Of a stretch of DNA of 64,000 bases, positions 42,233 to 49,084 are shown one piece after another (the stretch's first letter is position 1; each line of letters opens with the position of its first letter). Under the pieces are notes generated by a model. The model did no database searches. It was not told the DNA's origin and worked only from the letters and a program-made list of their open reading frames with translations. The stretch is from Promethearchaeota archaeon Loki_b32. Its GTDB lineage: Archaea > Asgardarchaeota > Lokiarchaeia > Sigyniarchaeales > SOKP01. Made by a program: the position numbers and the translations under genes. Location of the stretch: the NCBI GenBank assembly GCA_005223125.1, contig NJBH01000001.1:171935-235934 (forward strand), read 5' to 3'.

Positions 42233-43711
42233 ATGATCTTTCAAGGCTTGTATAACATTTTTGATTTATACTTTAAGGAAATGGATCTTTTTTACAATAA
42301 TATTGATCATTTTTTTCGTGAAAAAGTCAATATTCATTTTGAAGATAGTCTTGTTAATGAGAGTAATATAAGTCAAAAACTTAAAGAGCTTACAACTTAC
42401 TTTATTGAAATATTCGATGATATTGGATTTGAAAAATCTGAAATAGAAAATGAATTTATGGATCCTTTTTTAGAATTACAAGATAAGGATAATGGAAAAA
42501 TAAAATCAATGATTGAATTATACGAGAGTAAACTCGCACCTTTAATTTATGAAATTTTTTTAGAAAAAATTGTTGATTATCTGGTAGATGTAAAGGTTGC
42601 TCCTCTAATGTTAAAATTGAAAGCTGAAGGTTTTCTCACCATTGAATTCATTATGGAACTTAGGAATTTTAAGAATACGATTGATGGGTCTTCTGAAAAA
42701 AGAGAAAATCTAAGGAAGTATATTCAAATTCAAGAGAAAATTATTGATAAATTTCAAAGAAATAAGCTAAAAATTGAAAGCTTGGAAGATTTACAAGAAC
42801 CTGAATTTAAACTCCAATTATTATATTTACTTTATAGAATCATTCATTTCTTTCACCTTCAGAAGACATTTGATTTTTCTCACATCAAATTGTATTTAGA
42901 AGAAAATATTGATGAGTGGTTAATAGATGTTCCTTTAGTAACTTTAAAAAACCCTGATATCTATTTTTGTGGAATTTATTTAGCTAAAAATCTAAATATT
43001 AACCTTGATGAGAAAAAAATTGTCGATTTTTTGTTAAATTTATATGAAGAAGCTACAGATAGATATGAATCACTTATTATCGAAGCTACCGATGGAGCAT
43101 ATTATTTTATTAAATCCACGGAATTGATGAATTTTTCGCTTGATTTTGAACATATAAACAAGTTGATCAAATCTGAACCTAAATTTTTCGAATCTAACTA
43201 TTTGAAAACTTTAGAAACTTCTCAATTAGTTGTTATTTTAAAAATTTATCGCCAATTAGGGATTAGCAAATTAGAGCGTGAAATTAAAGCAATTTTAGAA
43301 GAGATTGAGTTAAGAATTGCTCCAGAAGGTATAAAACAATTCCGGGACGGTTTTGTTTCTTCAGAAGCTACATATTATGTCTTATTTAGTTATTTTATGA
43401 ACAATTCACTTGAAAAGTTAAAAGATTATGACCTTTTGAGTAATATTGTATCTCGAATTTATAGAAATCTAGAATTTCTCGATTTTTCAACTGATACGAA
43501 TTATGATTTAGTTAGCGAATTGTTTTATTCAATTGAAAGTTTGAAATTATTTAATTGTATAGAAACAAAAGAAATGATAATTCATTTAGCAAAATATTTG
43601 TTTCCACAAGAAATCGTTGATGCTATCTCAATCAGTAAAGAAACTATCAGAGAAAAGGCAAAATTTAGACATTTAAAGGTAAATCGAATAACAGGAGAGA
43701 CTATTTATTAA
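42233..43711 (+). CDS. Helical-repeat protein, unknown (possible alpha/alpha-toroid fold)
   Basis: The 492-residue protein is predominantly helical, with many Leu/Ile/Phe and Glu/Lys residues and no membrane span. From about residue 200, repeats of paired helices appear, for example ISKLEREIKAILEEIELR followed by GFVSSEATYYVLFSYF. That segment recalls the helix-turn units of the prenyltransferase/terpene-cyclase alpha/alpha toroid, but the catalytic motifs of those families are not visible. The gene is preceded by a truncated copy of its own start. It is upstream of, and 115 bases from, the AGPS-like operon. Confidence 0.65.
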   Translation: MIFQGLYNIFDLYFKEMDLFYNNIDHFFREKVNIHFEDSLVNESNISQKLKELTTYFIEIFDDIGFEKSEIENEFMDPFLELQDKDNGKIKSMIELYESKLAPLIYEIFLEKIVDYLVDVKVAPLMLKLKAEGFLTIEFIMELRNFKNTIDGSSEKRENLRKYIQIQEKIIDKFQRNKLKIESLEDLQEPEFKLQLLYLLYRIIHFFHLQKTFDFSHIKLYLEENIDEWLIDVPLVTLKNPDIYFCGIYLAKNLNINLDEKKIVDFLLNLYEEATDRYESLIIEATDGAYYFIKSTELMNFSLDFEHINKLIKSEPKFFESNYLKTLETSQLVVILKIYRQLGISKLEREIKAILEEIELRIAPEGIKQFRDGFVSSEATYYVLFSYFMNNSLEKLKDYDLLSNIVSRIYRNLEFLDFSTDTNYDLVSELFYSIESLKLFNCIETKEMIIHLAKYLFPQEIVDAISISKETIREKAKFRHLKVNRITGETIY

Positions 43712-43826: not shown

Positions 43827-45305
43827 ATGGATTTTAAAGAGTTTGAATTAATATATAAAGACAACCGATGTGAAATTAAAGATAAACAGAAGATAGAGTC
43901 AAAATTAAAGGAAATTGTAGGAGAGAATAATATTTCTACAAATGATGTTGATATTTTAGCGTATTCAAAAGATTCTACTTTAATTGGAATGAATTGGACA
44001 ATCCAAGGAAAGATTGCGGGATTGCCAGATTTTATAACCTGGCCAGAAACTGTTGAACAAATATCAGAAATTTTGAAACTTGCTAACAAGGAAAAAATAC
44101 CAATTATTCCATTTGGAGAAGGCTCTGGTGTTGTAGGAGGAGCTATAGCGATTTATGGCGGCATTATTATTGATATGAAGAAATTTAATAAAATTCTAAA
44201 GATAAATGATAAAAATTTAACAGTTACTGCCCAAACTGGCATAAATGGAATGAATTTAGAAAGAATATTAAATTCTAAAGGCTATACAACTGGTCATATT
44301 CCACAATCTCTGTATATATCCTCTCTAGGTGGATGGATTGCTCATAGAGCGGCAGGACAATTTAGCACTAAATATGGTAAAATTGAAGATATTGTGTTAG
44401 GGATGGAAGTAGTATTACCTCAAGGTGAAATCATTAATTTTAAAACTATCGCAAGAGCTTCAACAGGACCTCAACTTGACAAATTATTTATAGGAGGAGA
44501 AGGGACTCTTGGAATTGTCACTAAAGCCACACTAAAAATTTGGCCTTATCCCGCTAAAAGAACTTTAATCTCATATGTTTTTCCTTCAATTGAAGACTCT
44601 TTTGAGGCTATAAGACAAATATTAAGAGAACAAATTTACCCCGCAGTAGTGCGAATTTATGACCAATTTGAGACTATGAGACATTTTCCAGATATAGATA
44701 AAGCAAAGGATAAGGTTATGGTTGTATTTATTTGCGAAGGGAATTCAAAGCTCGTTGATTTAGAAGAATCAATCACTAGAGAAAAATCTGAGAAAAATTC
44801 AGGCGTAGACTGTGGAGAGCATCCCGTAGAACATTGGCTTGAGTCTAGATTTAGAATAACAGAAACTTCATCAATGCCTCCGTATAAAATAGTATTTGAT
44901 ACTATTGAAGTTGCTTCTCTATGGGAAAATGCATCAGATATCTATCATTCTGTTTTAAAATCAATGAAACAATTACAAGGAGTCATAATGATTACCGCAC
45001 ATGTTTCACATTTTTATCCAAATGGCGTAGGGATTTATTTTTCTTTTGGTGGAGTCCCAACAAAAGAACAATCAGATTTAGAGTTTTACCAAAAATGCTG
45101 GAATACTGTAGTTAAAGCTGTATTAGATGCTGGTGGCTCAATTGCCCACCATCATGGTATAGGAATTAATAGAGCTCATTGGATGGAAAGTGAATGGGGT
45201 ACTTCTATGAATACATTAAAAGAAATAAAAAAATTACTTGATCCAAACGATATTCTAAATCCTGGAAAAGTATATGTAGATACCTGGAAAGGAGGTGAAA
45301 AATAA
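43827..45305 (+). CDS. FAD-linked oxidase, alkyl-DHAP-synthase / GlcD-like
   Basis: The 492-residue flavoprotein has the VAO/PCMH fold. The FAD-binding domain shows PFGEGSGVVGGAIA, TGHIPQSLYISSLGGWIAHRAAGQ, KYGKIEDIVLGMEVVLP and GGEGTLGIVTKATL. The C-terminal cap has HVSHFYPNGVGIYFSF and AHHHGIGINRAHWM, in which the His triplet matches the alkylglycerone-phosphate synthase (AGPS) branch more than ordinary D-lactate dehydrogenases. Its stop lies inside a perfect GGAGGTGA-ATG junction to a CCG Fe-S protein, so the two probably form an oxidoreductase. Plausible substrates are glycerol-3-phosphate, 2-hydroxyacids or alkyl-DHAP. Confidence 0.85.
   Translation: MDFKEFELIYKDNRCEIKDKQKIESKLKEIVGENNISTNDVDILAYSKDSTLIGMNWTIQGKIAGLPDFITWPETVEQISEILKLANKEKIPIIPFGEGSGVVGGAIAIYGGIIIDMKKFNKILKINDKNLTVTAQTGINGMNLERILNSKGYTTGHIPQSLYISSLGGWIAHRAAGQFSTKYGKIEDIVLGMEVVLPQGEIINFKTIARASTGPQLDKLFIGGEGTLGIVTKATLKIWPYPAKRTLISYVFPSIEDSFEAIRQILREQIYPAVVRIYDQFETMRHFPDIDKAKDKVMVVFICEGNSKLVDLEESITREKSEKNSGVDCGEHPVEHWLESRFRITETSSMPPYKIVFDTIEVASLWENASDIYHSVLKSMKQLQGVIMITAHVSHFYPNGVGIYFSFGGVPTKEQSDLEFYQKCWNTVVKAVLDAGGSIAHHHGIGINRAHWMESEWGTSMNTLKEIKKLLDPNDILNPGKVYVDTWKGGEK
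45291..45298 (+). promoter_or_regulatory. Perfect Shine-Dalgarno for the CCG Fe-S protein
   Basis: GGAGGTGA lies seven bases before ATG 45306 and inside the last codons of the flavoprotein gene. Such strong sites are rare in this window. It implies translation coupling of the two subunits. Confidence 0.8.
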
Positions 45306-46580
45306 ATGGGTGTCGAAGAAACATTAAAAAAGTACAGTTGGATTTTACCACTTATTCAAAAAGCTGATAGAGCAACCAGAGCAGTGATAATGAAAAACTT
45401 TAGGCAAAAAAAGACGAATTTTTTTCCAGAAGGAGAATTTAATGCTGATGTAGAGAATCTAATTAATTGCATGCTTTGCCCGAATATGTGTCGCTTCGAT
45501 TGCGGAACTTTGGTTGCTTCACAAAACGAAAGTATGAGTCCAGCATATAAAGCCAGAATTGGATATTATTTGACAATGGGGATAATTGATCCAGCTGATT
45601 CTGCTAATAAAGAGTTTATTAACTTGATGTATAAATGTACTAATGAGGAAAACTGCAAAATTTGGTGCCCATTTGACTTTTCAGTAGTTTCCTTACTAGA
45701 AACTGTCAGAGATGATTTAAATGATGAAGGTCTAATGCCAGATTACTGTAAACAGCAGATTTCTAAGTTAAATAAGACTAATACTATAGAAGATTACAAT
45801 ATATTCGAAACTTATAAAGAAAAAGGAATAGAAAATATAGAATCGGATGGTAATGACGATGTTTTCTATTATATTGGATGTCAATCAATGAAATTTCCTG
45901 AAGTTGTAAAAGCAAATATAGAAATTTTAAAAAAAGCTGGAATAAAATTTTCAACCAATCTTGACAAAAAGGTATGTTGTGGGGGTCCAGCGTTTAATAT
46001 AAGAGAAATGGAAACCGCAAAAAAGTTTGCTAGGAAAAATAAAGAACTCATTGAATCCACAGGCGCTAAAATCATCATTTCAGATTGTCCTGGGTGTATT
46101 TTGACATTAACAGAGAGATATGAAAAAGCAGGAATTAAAATCGAAAAGGAAATTGTTCATATTGTTCAGTACTTTAGAAAATTAATTGATGAAGGCAAAT
46201 TGAGATTTGAAAAAAGTATTCCAGAAGAATTTAGAAAGATAACAATACATGATCCTTGTCTTATAGCGAGAAACTTAAAAGACACTGAATCAATTAGGAT
46301 GATTCTTAATAAAATTCCGGATTTAGAAATTATTGAACCTATGTATAATAAAGAATATGTTCATTGTTGCGGTTGGAGTGGTACTGCACACTGGGCAGAT
46401 AAAGATTTAGCTATTAGAGAAGCACAGAATAGAATAAATGAATTAAAAGAAACTGGAGCAAATATTTTCATATCAGCATGTCCTCTCTGTGAATTAGGGC
46501 TAGCTTATGGAATAGATGAAACAGAAAAAGAAAAATATAATATACTGGATATATCTGAATTATTAATAAAAGCATTATAA
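45306..46580 (+). CDS. CCG-domain Fe-S oxidoreductase (GlpC/HdrD-like)
   Basis: The 424-residue protein opens with a ferredoxin-like part containing CMLCPNMCRFDCG and later CTNEENCKIWCPF. Two CCG domains follow: CQSM...VCCGGP...DCPGC and HDPC...HCCGWSG...CPLC. CCG domains bind [4Fe-4S] clusters and pass electrons to quinone or heterodisulfide-type acceptors. With the FAD subunit just upstream this resembles the GlcD/GlcF or GlpA/GlpC two-subunit dehydrogenases. No membrane anchor is visible, so the electron acceptor is open. Confidence 0.9.
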   Translation: MGVEETLKKYSWILPLIQKADRATRAVIMKNFRQKKTNFFPEGEFNADVENLINCMLCPNMCRFDCGTLVASQNESMSPAYKARIGYYLTMGIIDPADSANKEFINLMYKCTNEENCKIWCPFDFSVVSLLETVRDDLNDEGLMPDYCKQQISKLNKTNTIEDYNIFETYKEKGIENIESDGNDDVFYYIGCQSMKFPEVVKANIEILKKAGIKFSTNLDKKVCCGGPAFNIREMETAKKFARKNKELIESTGAKIIISDCPGCILTLTERYEKAGIKIEKEIVHIVQYFRKLIDEGKLRFEKSIPEEFRKITIHDPCLIARNLKDTESIRMILNKIPDLEIIEPMYNKEYVHCCGWSGTAHWADKDLAIREAQNRINELKETGANIFISACPLCELGLAYGIDETEKEKYNILDISELLIKAL

Positions 46581-46617
46581 AAAATAATAAATATATAAAT
46601 TTCTATAGAGTGATTAT

Positions 46618-48075
46618 ATGAGTGATTTGATATGTGTGTTTGATGTTGGGACAACCGGAGCAAGAACAATTATTTTTGATATTAATGGTAAAGAAATTGC
46701 CCGTGCTTATGAGGAATATCCTGTTGTGAAGGGTCCCGTTGGTATTTCAGAACAAGATCCAATAATCTGGTGGAATGCTGTTAAAAATACTTGTAATAAG
46801 GTATCAAGAACTTTTAAAACTGAAGATATTATTGGGATATCAGCTTCATTTCTTCGTGGTACAATAACGATTATTGATAAAAAAGGGGAGGTACTACATC
46901 CAGCTTTAACTTGGATGGATGAAAGACAAGAGACTACAGCATTAGAGTGGAAGAGAGAGGTAGATCTTAGAAGATCAATTCCTAAAATACTATGGCTTAA
47001 GAATAATAAACCAGATTTATTTAGTAAGGCAGATAAAATTATCCATCCGGATACTTATATATATATGAAATTATGTGAAGAATGTGTTACGGACCCCACG
47101 AATGGAATTATGGGAATTTTAAATAAAAAAACACTTAATTGGGACAATGAGTTAGCAGAAACATTTGATTTGCCAATAGAATTATGGCCTGAATTACATA
47201 CTCCAGGTGAAATTATTGGAGAATTATCTAGTTCGGCTGCAGATGCTTTAGGTTTAAAAAAAAATATTCCAGTAATACTAGGCGGGGGAGATCAACAATG
47301 TTCGGCATTAGGCTTAGGTGTGATCAATAAAGGTCAAGCTAAAATCACTGTTGGAACTGGAACTTTCTTAGATTATGTAGTAGATGAACCTGTTGAACCT
47401 GCTGGAGATTTTCCTATTTTTTCATATCCTTCTGTGGTCAAGGGAAAATGGAATATTGAAGGTATCACTCCGGGAACAGGCACGGCATTAAAATGGTTTA
47501 CCGAAAATTTTTCACAATTACAAATTAAAGAGAGCCAAGAGAAAAATATCAATGTTTATGACATGTTAACAAAAGAAGCAGCAACAATACCTCCCGGAAG
47601 TGAAGGATTGTTATTTCTACCATTATATATCTTCCGAAAAGGGACCATTCATGGTTTAGGTTGGAATCATACGAGGGGACATATGATACGAGCAATAATG
47701 GAATCTGCTGCGCTATCTGCCCAAATGTATCTTGGTTTTTTGGAAGGAATGGGCGGGGCTAAAACTACTGAACTGAGGGTTGATGGCGGAGCGATGAATA
47801 GTGAGTTATGGGCTCAAATTTTTGCAGATGTTACATCAAAACGAATATTAATTCCAGAGATTAAAGATGGTGCTGCTATGGGTGCTGCAATTTTAGGATT
47901 CATAGGGTGTAAAAGATATAATACATTTGAAGAAGCTATTGCAAAAATGGTTAGATTCCCTACAATTAAAAGCCCAATTAAAGAAAATTCTAGGATCTAC
48001 AAAAAACTAAATAGAATTTTCATGCCAGCATTATTAGATACATATAGCAAGAAGAGAGTAACAAAAGATCTCTAA
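46618..48075 (+). CDS. FGGY-family carbohydrate kinase (glycerol/xylulose kinase-like)
   Basis: The 485-residue kinase starts ICVFDVGTTGARTIIFD, with the phosphate-1 motif, and continues with GISEQDPIIWWNAV and LTWMDERQETTA. It then has GGGDQQCSALGLG, KITVGTGTFLDY and the C-terminal LRVDGGAMNSELWAQ...DGAAMGAAILG motif. It is the third gene of the flavoprotein/CCG operon, starting 37 bases after it with GAGTGAT upstream. The substrate is not fixed by sequence: glycerol would tie it to glycerol-3-phosphate oxidation by the upstream pair, but xylulose- or other polyol-type kinases look similar. Confidence 0.88.
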   Translation: MSDLICVFDVGTTGARTIIFDINGKEIARAYEEYPVVKGPVGISEQDPIIWWNAVKNTCNKVSRTFKTEDIIGISASFLRGTITIIDKKGEVLHPALTWMDERQETTALEWKREVDLRRSIPKILWLKNNKPDLFSKADKIIHPDTYIYMKLCEECVTDPTNGIMGILNKKTLNWDNELAETFDLPIELWPELHTPGEIIGELSSSAADALGLKKNIPVILGGGDQQCSALGLGVINKGQAKITVGTGTFLDYVVDEPVEPAGDFPIFSYPSVVKGKWNIEGITPGTGTALKWFTENFSQLQIKESQEKNINVYDMLTKEAATIPPGSEGLLFLPLYIFRKGTIHGLGWNHTRGHMIRAIMESAALSAQMYLGFLEGMGGAKTTELRVDGGAMNSELWAQIFADVTSKRILIPEIKDGAAMGAAILGFIGCKRYNTFEEAIAKMVRFPTIKSPIKENSRIYKKLNRIFMPALLDTYSKKRVTKDL

Positions 48076-48096: not shown

Positions 48097-48256
48097 AAAT
48101 CTTAATCATGAAAATTATCTAATAGTACTAATAATTTTTAAATTGTGTAAAATTTTCATTGTAGACTCCATATCTCCAATTATTTTTAAATTTAGAAAAG
48201 TATTTTTGGAATACTTAATTTCAAAATTTATAGAATATCATAAGGAACTATCTCAC

Positions 48257-49084
48257 ATGCCTTATTTTAAGAACCAAGAGGGTTACAATCTATATTATGA
48301 GAATATTAACCAAGATTCAAAAGCCTGTACTATTATTTTACTTCATGGATTTGCGTCCTCTGCTTCTTTTTTTAAGGCTCAAATAAAAATATTAAAAAAT
48401 AATTATCGAATTATTGCTTTTGATGCATTAGGGCATGGGAGAAGTGATCACCCTAAAGAAATAAACCTTTCAAAAAATCTTAGATATGATATTATTAGAG
48501 ATTTAGAGAATCTTCTAGAACATTTGGAAGTAACCGAAAAGTATGGGATTATAGGGCATTCTCTAGTTGGCGGAATGATTGGACAATTATTTGCTGTAAA
48601 GCATCCTCAGAATATCAAATTTCTTATTCTGTTAAATTCAGGATACATCATGATTGATAATGTTATAAGGAATATCTTTTATAATCTGCTCCCATATTTT
48701 ATCCGAATGAATTTCCTGGATGTAGTAGCGAATTCTGTTGAGAAAATATTAGATAAGACAATTCCATATATAATTACCGCGTTATCAGATACATTAGCAG
48801 GTTTAAACTTAACTAAAGATCAATTGCATATGCAAATTGAGGATCAAATTTTCCGTATGATACATGAAATAAAAGAATATGACCCATCAGGTATTAATTG
48901 CCCAACTTTAATAATAGGTGGAAGACTTGATAATTTTGCTCCAGAACAGATGTCAGAAAAATTACATGATATGATTCCAAATTCCACATTAGAAATTATT
49001 GATATGGCAGGTCATTTTGCTCCAGCTCAGAGAAAAGAGGTAGTAAATGAATTAATTTGTAACTTTATTAGAAAACTTTGGTGA
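48257..49084 (+). CDS. Alpha/beta-fold hydrolase
   Basis: The protein is about 275 residues from the ATG at 48257; an in-frame TTG at 48143 would add 38 residues with no family counterpart. The hydrolase fold is shown by LLHGFASSASFFKAQ, the FDALGHGRSDHP strand, the nucleophile elbow IGHSLVGGMIG (Ser), a DNFAPEQ acid region and GHFAP with the catalytic His. All triad members are present. The GHSLVG elbow has Leu-Val where Met-Gly is common. It may be an esterase, peptidase or C-C hydrolase. It stands alone after a T-run. Confidence 0.82.
   Translation: MPYFKNQEGYNLYYENINQDSKACTIILLHGFASSASFFKAQIKILKNNYRIIAFDALGHGRSDHPKEINLSKNLRYDIIRDLENLLEHLEVTEKYGIIGHSLVGGMIGQLFAVKHPQNIKFLILLNSGYIMIDNVIRNIFYNLLPYFIRMNFLDVVANSVEKILDKTIPYIITALSDTLAGLNLTKDQLHMQIEDQIFRMIHEIKEYDPSGINCPTLIIGGRLDNFAPEQMSEKLHDMIPNSTLEIIDMAGHFAPAQRKEVVNELICNFIRKLW

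Follow-up and report, generated by a model that had tools for sequence, protein, structure and literature searches.

The three genes at positions 43827 to 48075 of the window (the whole stretch of 64,000 nucleotides analyzed here) raise the question of what a flavoprotein that resembles alkyl-DHAP synthase (AGPS, EC 2.5.1.26) does beside an iron-sulfur protein and a kinase. The initial annotation offered two answers, namely a new system for the oxidation of glycerol-3-phosphate or a relationship with the ether-lipid enzymes of eukaryotes. The source genome (4.1 Mb) gave 85 matches to the Ras family and one of 441 bits to actin, which mark it as Asgard-type, and it has relatives across the phylum in which the locus could be compared. 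We suggest, with moderate confidence and from sequence comparisons, that the trio is a cassette for the catabolism of C3 compounds of the glycerol type.

All three open reading frames lie on the forward strand where they had been placed, and Pfam confirmed their identities. The first (43827..45305, +) encodes a FAD protein of 492 aa from the AGPS superfamily with FAD_binding_4 and FAD-oxidase_C domains. The second (45306..46580, +) encodes a CCG iron-sulfur protein of 424 aa, with two CCG matches and a weak Fer4_8 match, and the third (46618..48075, +) an FGGY kinase of 485 aa with FGGY_N and FGGY_C domains. None of the three proteins passed an equivalog cut-off of NCBIfam. The proposed coupling of the first two genes through a perfect Shine-Dalgarno sequence was also found: AGGAGGTGA (45290..45298, +) is located in the final codons of the flavoprotein coding sequence, whose stop codon is directly followed by the ATG of the CCG gene. 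A purine run resembling a Shine-Dalgarno sequence is kept at this junction in related genomes. The place of the kinase in the trio is less firm, since the A/T-rich gap of 37 nt that separates it from the CCG gene could hold a promoter of its own; its cotranscription with the pair is therefore only a candidate. In most loci of family f1, an alpha/beta hydrolase gene (48143..49084, + in the window) stands 3' of the kinase gene and is a possible accessory esterase. Most f1 loci also have an ORF directly before the flavoprotein gene (42233-43711 in the window, 492 aa; 55-81% identity), for which Pfam and NCBIfam gave no match.

Both phmmer and Foldseek ranked AGPS first for the flavoprotein (2uuu, 2e-64; 5ae3, 7e-40) and D-lactate dehydrogenases second. 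Its structure model had a pLDDT of 86. The active-site residues are of the AGPS type, as initially supposed. R419, Y578, H615, and H617 of AGPS (numbering of the guinea-pig enzyme) all align with residues of the flavoprotein: R276 (codon 44652..44654, +), the invariant Y404 (45036..45038, +), H441, and H443. The histidine triplet noted earlier corresponds to residues 441-443 (AHHHG; codons 45147..45155, +), at the place of GEH in GlcD; position 616 is His in the window protein and Gln in the Thor-like rows. In its alignment row, the flavoprotein has neither the GEHG motif of GlcD nor the His that accompanies it at position 578. One AGPS residue is lacking: R515, in the YxRD motif, is Arg in 51/51 rows of the AGPS clade and in 0/22 window-type rows, and its place is taken here by S348 (codon 44868..44870, +).

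The phylogeny agrees with these residues. In a tree of 58 rows with long branches flagged, the AGPS clade (97/100) comprised eukaryotic AGPS, bacterial AGPS, and one Asgard protein of family f15, with eukaryotic AGPS nested among the bacterial enzymes. The window type fell outside this clade, an exclusion well supported on these data. Nearest to its own subgroup were bacterial FGGY-linked proteins (the YgcU group, 87/97), a join that we regard as tentative because of the long branches. GlcD and the GlcD-like paralogue of the source genome, the two GlcD-type rows of the tree, split off at 100/100, so the window type did not group with D-lactate or glycolate dehydrogenases either. Judged by its sequence, the flavoprotein belongs to a separate, uncharacterized sister branch of AGPS. 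From the tree and the missing R515 we reject the descent of eukaryotic AGPS from the Asgard flavoprotein, and from the 100/100 split and the active-site residues its membership of GlcD/Dld. The direct link to eukaryotic ether-lipid enzymes is thus not upheld; the tie is at the superfamily level only. When contigs were scanned with eukaryotic AGPS, the best 80 matches were bacterial or euryarchaeal AGPS with no Asgard protein among them. The f15 protein (L091:8609-10255, genome G090), encoded next to a GlpD gene, contains R515 and, unlike the window flavoprotein, is a candidate for a real archaeal AGPS.

The electron-transfer partner has two complete five-Cys CCG sets and is soluble, with no transmembrane segment by hydropathy. 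Its N-terminal dicluster retains 7/8 Cys, with E114 (codon 45645-45647) replacing one. This place is Cys in 20/23 CCG rows and Glu in the window protein, L038, and L044. One ligand of the second N-terminal cluster may be unusual.

The kinase was described initially as a polyol kinase, which is right in the broad sense only. Its best HMMs were XylB, LsrK, and GntK, followed by GlpK, every one under its cut-off (176 bits against 590 for the curated GlpK model). The GlpK signature consists of R83, E84, Y135, D245, and F270 and is reported to be identical across GlpK clusters (PMC3245297). R83, D245, and F270, as well as W103 and Q246, are present in the window kinase (R83-E84 corresponds to R80-G81, codons 46855..46860, +; D245-Q246 to D225-Q226, codons 47290..47295, +), E84 is replaced by Gly, and Y135 is missing, although its equivalence depends on the alignment because the loop is shorter. 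All 14 window-type kinases read R-[GADQ]-..-D-Q-F and are without Y135, and both E84 and Y135 are missing in 20/20 kinases of the GlpK-like K1 type; the full signature was found in 29/30 canonical GlpK and 18/20 K2 kinases. Of the kinases assigned to K2 on score, two are without E84/Y135, and the tree places both with the K1 and f23 kinases. In a quick, unrooted tree, a 100* branch separates the window type from K1, which lies far from it, so the loss of E84/Y135 looks convergent. The source genome carries another kinase, L182 (G000:C4:47401-48816), in which all five signature residues are present, and an unlinked gene for a GlpD-like protein with 47% identity to the GlpD encoded beside the pair in f2; plain glycerol use therefore does not depend on this trio. 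Together with the loss of E84/Y135, this suggests that the substrate is probably a glycerol derivative rather than plain glycerol. In the quick tree, L182 and the K2 kinases fall outside the canonical GlpK clade and possibly form an independent Asgard glycerol kinase lineage.

Orthologues of the flavoprotein (E<1e-70) were found in 131/228 genomes of the phylum, so the observation is not due to chance. The FAD and CCG genes are adjacent in every order-level locus, and in every other window-type locus read the CCG gene adjoins or lies near the flavoprotein gene; in the f20 loci, a GlpC-type gene is the sole CCG gene seen near it. The full trio with the window-type kinase is typical of the source's own genus and related genera; in other members of the same family, K1 substitutes for it (L042, L264), and L263 has both. 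GlpK-like kinases adjoin or lie near the flavoprotein gene in f1 g7, g3, f2, and f23, and K1 is sometimes distant from it (110 kb in G030). Among f1 genomes at least 90% complete, 37/42 have the flavoprotein, and a window-type or K1 kinase is present in 36 of these 37, that of G020 being partial and at a contig end. The flavoprotein-less f1 genomes (G007, G021, G129, G134, and G138, from four genera) have neither kinase (5/5), a co-loss with a hypergeometric value of 7e-6, calculated by hand and ignoring kinship among genomes.

The neighborhoods in relatives are those of glycerol metabolism. The gene run kinase-glpA-glpB-glpC-flavoprotein-CCG is found in the Thor-like family f28, and a near form in f19/f20; in these runs GlpB exceeds the curated cut-off, and GlpA, at 354-455 bits, falls short of its own cut-offs. 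By coordinate count, 28 f28 genomes have the kinase and flavoprotein genes inside ~7 kb on one contig, and 22 also have DAO_C (glpA) inside such a stretch. The glpD gene adjoins the pair in f2 g13 and lies near it in f5 and at the second copy of the flavoprotein gene in G014. This second copy (L055, G014:C5:12205-13710) is 36% identical and has an in-frame TAG; a window-type kinase gene and a CCG gene are also nearby.

AGPS-like FAD proteins are encoded next to or near FGGY kinases in Shinella, Roseibium, Novosphingobium, Priestia, Ilyobacter, and E. coli K-12, so this pairing of genes extends beyond Asgard. The clusters of Ilyobacter and E. coli include ETF-type flavoprotein genes, that of Novosphingobium includes glpD, and those of Shinella and Roseibium include a UgpC-type ABC transporter, a glycerol-dehydrogenase-type enzyme, and a xylulokinase-like kinase; a CCG partner was seen in none of these bacterial examples. 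E. coli ygcU and ygcE (L097:5965-11375) are the bacterial counterparts of the flavoprotein-kinase pair, and our literature search found no paper naming both.

From the gene set, its conservation and co-occurrence, the phylogeny, and the residues observed, we infer the substrate, direction, electron acceptor, and step order of the cassette as follows. The kinase would phosphorylate a glycerol-like compound, which is probably something other than glycerol itself, such as a glycerol that bears a substituent on the carbon distal to the phosphate. The flavoprotein would oxidize this compound or its phosphate at the AGPS-like site (Y404, H441-H443, and R276), with electrons passing from FAD through the [4Fe-4S]/CCG partner to a soluble carrier. 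Carbon would exit as dihydroxyacetone phosphate, whose formation GlpABC or GlpD, adjoining in relatives and unlinked in the source genome, may assist where needed. We count the FAD-CCG adjacency, the glp context, the co-loss with the kinase in f1, the FGGY neighbors in bacteria, and the loss of E84/Y135 in favor of this catabolic cassette; against it, the compound used by the flavoprotein could be unrelated to that of the kinase. A larger polyol is a possible substrate, because the HMMs rank pentulose kinases over GlpK and the kinase of Shinella and Roseibium is xylulokinase-like. A 1-substituted glycerol as substrate would agree with the missing E84/Y135, with the C1 chemistry of AGPS, and with GlpA/GlpD as neighbors. 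A particular form of the cassette, which we consider unlikely, would degrade substituted glycerols such as glycerol ethers in a reversal of the ether-lipid pathway. The altered glycerol kinase would phosphorylate a 1-substituted glycerol, GlpABC or GlpD would oxidize C2, and the AGPS-like enzyme would remove the C1 substituent by flavin chemistry, passing electrons to the CCG protein and yielding DHAP. If true, this would be an anaerobic route for using ether lipids, the degradation of which would become directly testable; the literature search yielded nothing usable on ether-lipid cleavage.

One alternative is a plain glycerol pathway, with sn-glycerol-3-phosphate as the product of the kinase and the flavoprotein-CCG pair as a substitute dehydrogenase for it. 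The glycerol context of the initial proposal stands, with glpABC, glpD, and GlpK-like neighbors in relatives, and the kinase retains R83, D245, Q246, and F270. However, the source genome has its own full-signature GlpK-type kinase and GlpD, relatives such as the Thor-like genomes carry glpABC or glpD within the same gene run, and the signature residues E84 and Y135 (PMC3245297) are missing in both partner-kinase lineages. A plain glycerol-3-phosphate oxidase is weakened by these facts, and we rate it as rather unlikely. Slightly less probable is the interconversion of sn-glycerol-1-phosphate and DHAP by the pair, either for the use of archaeal lipid backbones or as a substitute for a missing canonical G1P dehydrogenase. 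The G1PDH (PF13685) matches of f1, f2, and f17 are weak (about 1e-5 to 1e-16, where most other families have 1e-19 to 1e-41), the flavoprotein is present in nearly all f1 and f2, and a glpABC in the same operon would handle the other enantiomer. Against this, an earlier paper proposes a divergent G1PDH for Loki (PMC6737245), and G007, G021, G129, G134, and G138 (92-99% complete) are without both the flavoprotein and a canonical G1PDH, as are most f17 genomes, and f28 has both; the flavoprotein is thus not an essential substitute, which weakens a role for it in lipid synthesis.

It is more improbable again that the flavoprotein is a D-2-hydroxyacid dehydrogenase of the GlcD/LDHD type (for D-lactate, glycolate, or glycerate) with a GlcF-like partner and a kinase adjacent by chance. 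Its model superposes on D-lactate dehydrogenase nearly as well as on AGPS, and it scores 235 bits with the GlcD model TIGR00387, although the cut-off is 568. In addition to the 100/100 separation, the residues at positions 419, 578, 615, 616, and 617 are E, H, G, E, and H in E. coli GlcD but R, Y, H, H/Q, and H in the window type, and neither the kinase co-loss nor the glp context agrees with a chance neighbor. The idea of a true AGPS that makes ether lipids and is the ancestor of the eukaryotic enzyme draws on the top PDB matches by sequence and fold and on the retained Y578, H615, H617, and R419. We consider it highly improbable, given the position outside the AGPS clade (97/100), the loss of R515 in 22/22 window-type rows, and the glycerol-catabolic context. 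Moreover, the exchange catalyzed by AGPS is redox-neutral and needs no electron partner.

Compared with known systems, the proposed catabolic cassette is a real, conserved, and uncharacterized module of an FGGY kinase, a FAD dehydrogenase, and an electron carrier. Eukaryotic and bacterial AGPS (ADPS) share with its flavoprotein the fold, R419/Y578/H615/H617, and the best sequence and structure match, but they are longer (about 550-660 aa, against about 490 aa), have the YxRD motif with R515, form a separate clade, and differ in the electron-transfer neighbor found here. The YgcU-type dehydrogenases of E. coli, Ilyobacter, Priestia, and Novosphingobium, likewise uncharacterized, are its nearest non-Asgard relatives in the tree, with an AGPS-type site without YxRD and an FGGY kinase in the cluster. 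Their electron partner is ETF or not evident instead of CCG, an SDR neighbor is frequent, and their kinase pockets differ. GlcDEF, LctD, and LDHD share the PCMH-type FAD fold, and GlcF too is a CCG protein, but they have their own GEHG motif with His at 578 and no kinase partner. GlpK and GlpABC resemble the cassette in gene neighborhood in relatives and in the GlpC-like CCG protein, but the window kinase is without E84/Y135 and GlpA is a DAO-type protein of another flavoprotein family. The GlpK/G3PDH/CoxG system of Sulfolobus acidocaldarius is also an archaeal kinase and FAD dehydrogenase for glycerol, but its dehydrogenase is of the GlpA type with a CoxG anchor; that paper (PMC11962113) contains none of the terms Asgard, Lokiarch, and CCG.

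These results define a redox module that spans the Asgard phylum, and with it a sister family of AGPS that also occurs in bacteria such as E. coli (ygcU). They also set eukaryotic AGPS apart from Asgard proteins that would otherwise be labeled AGPS or regarded as its ancestors, a separation that matters because AGPS was listed among the lipid genes of LUCA from family assignments (PMC11383801). Our literature search found no paper on AGPS-type enzymes in Asgard. In L265 (G135:C202), a single CCG gene stands between two flavoprotein genes, and after them come four window-type kinases in tandem, which are 69-90% identical and differ in their pocket residues, an array that looks like diversification of substrate or dosage.
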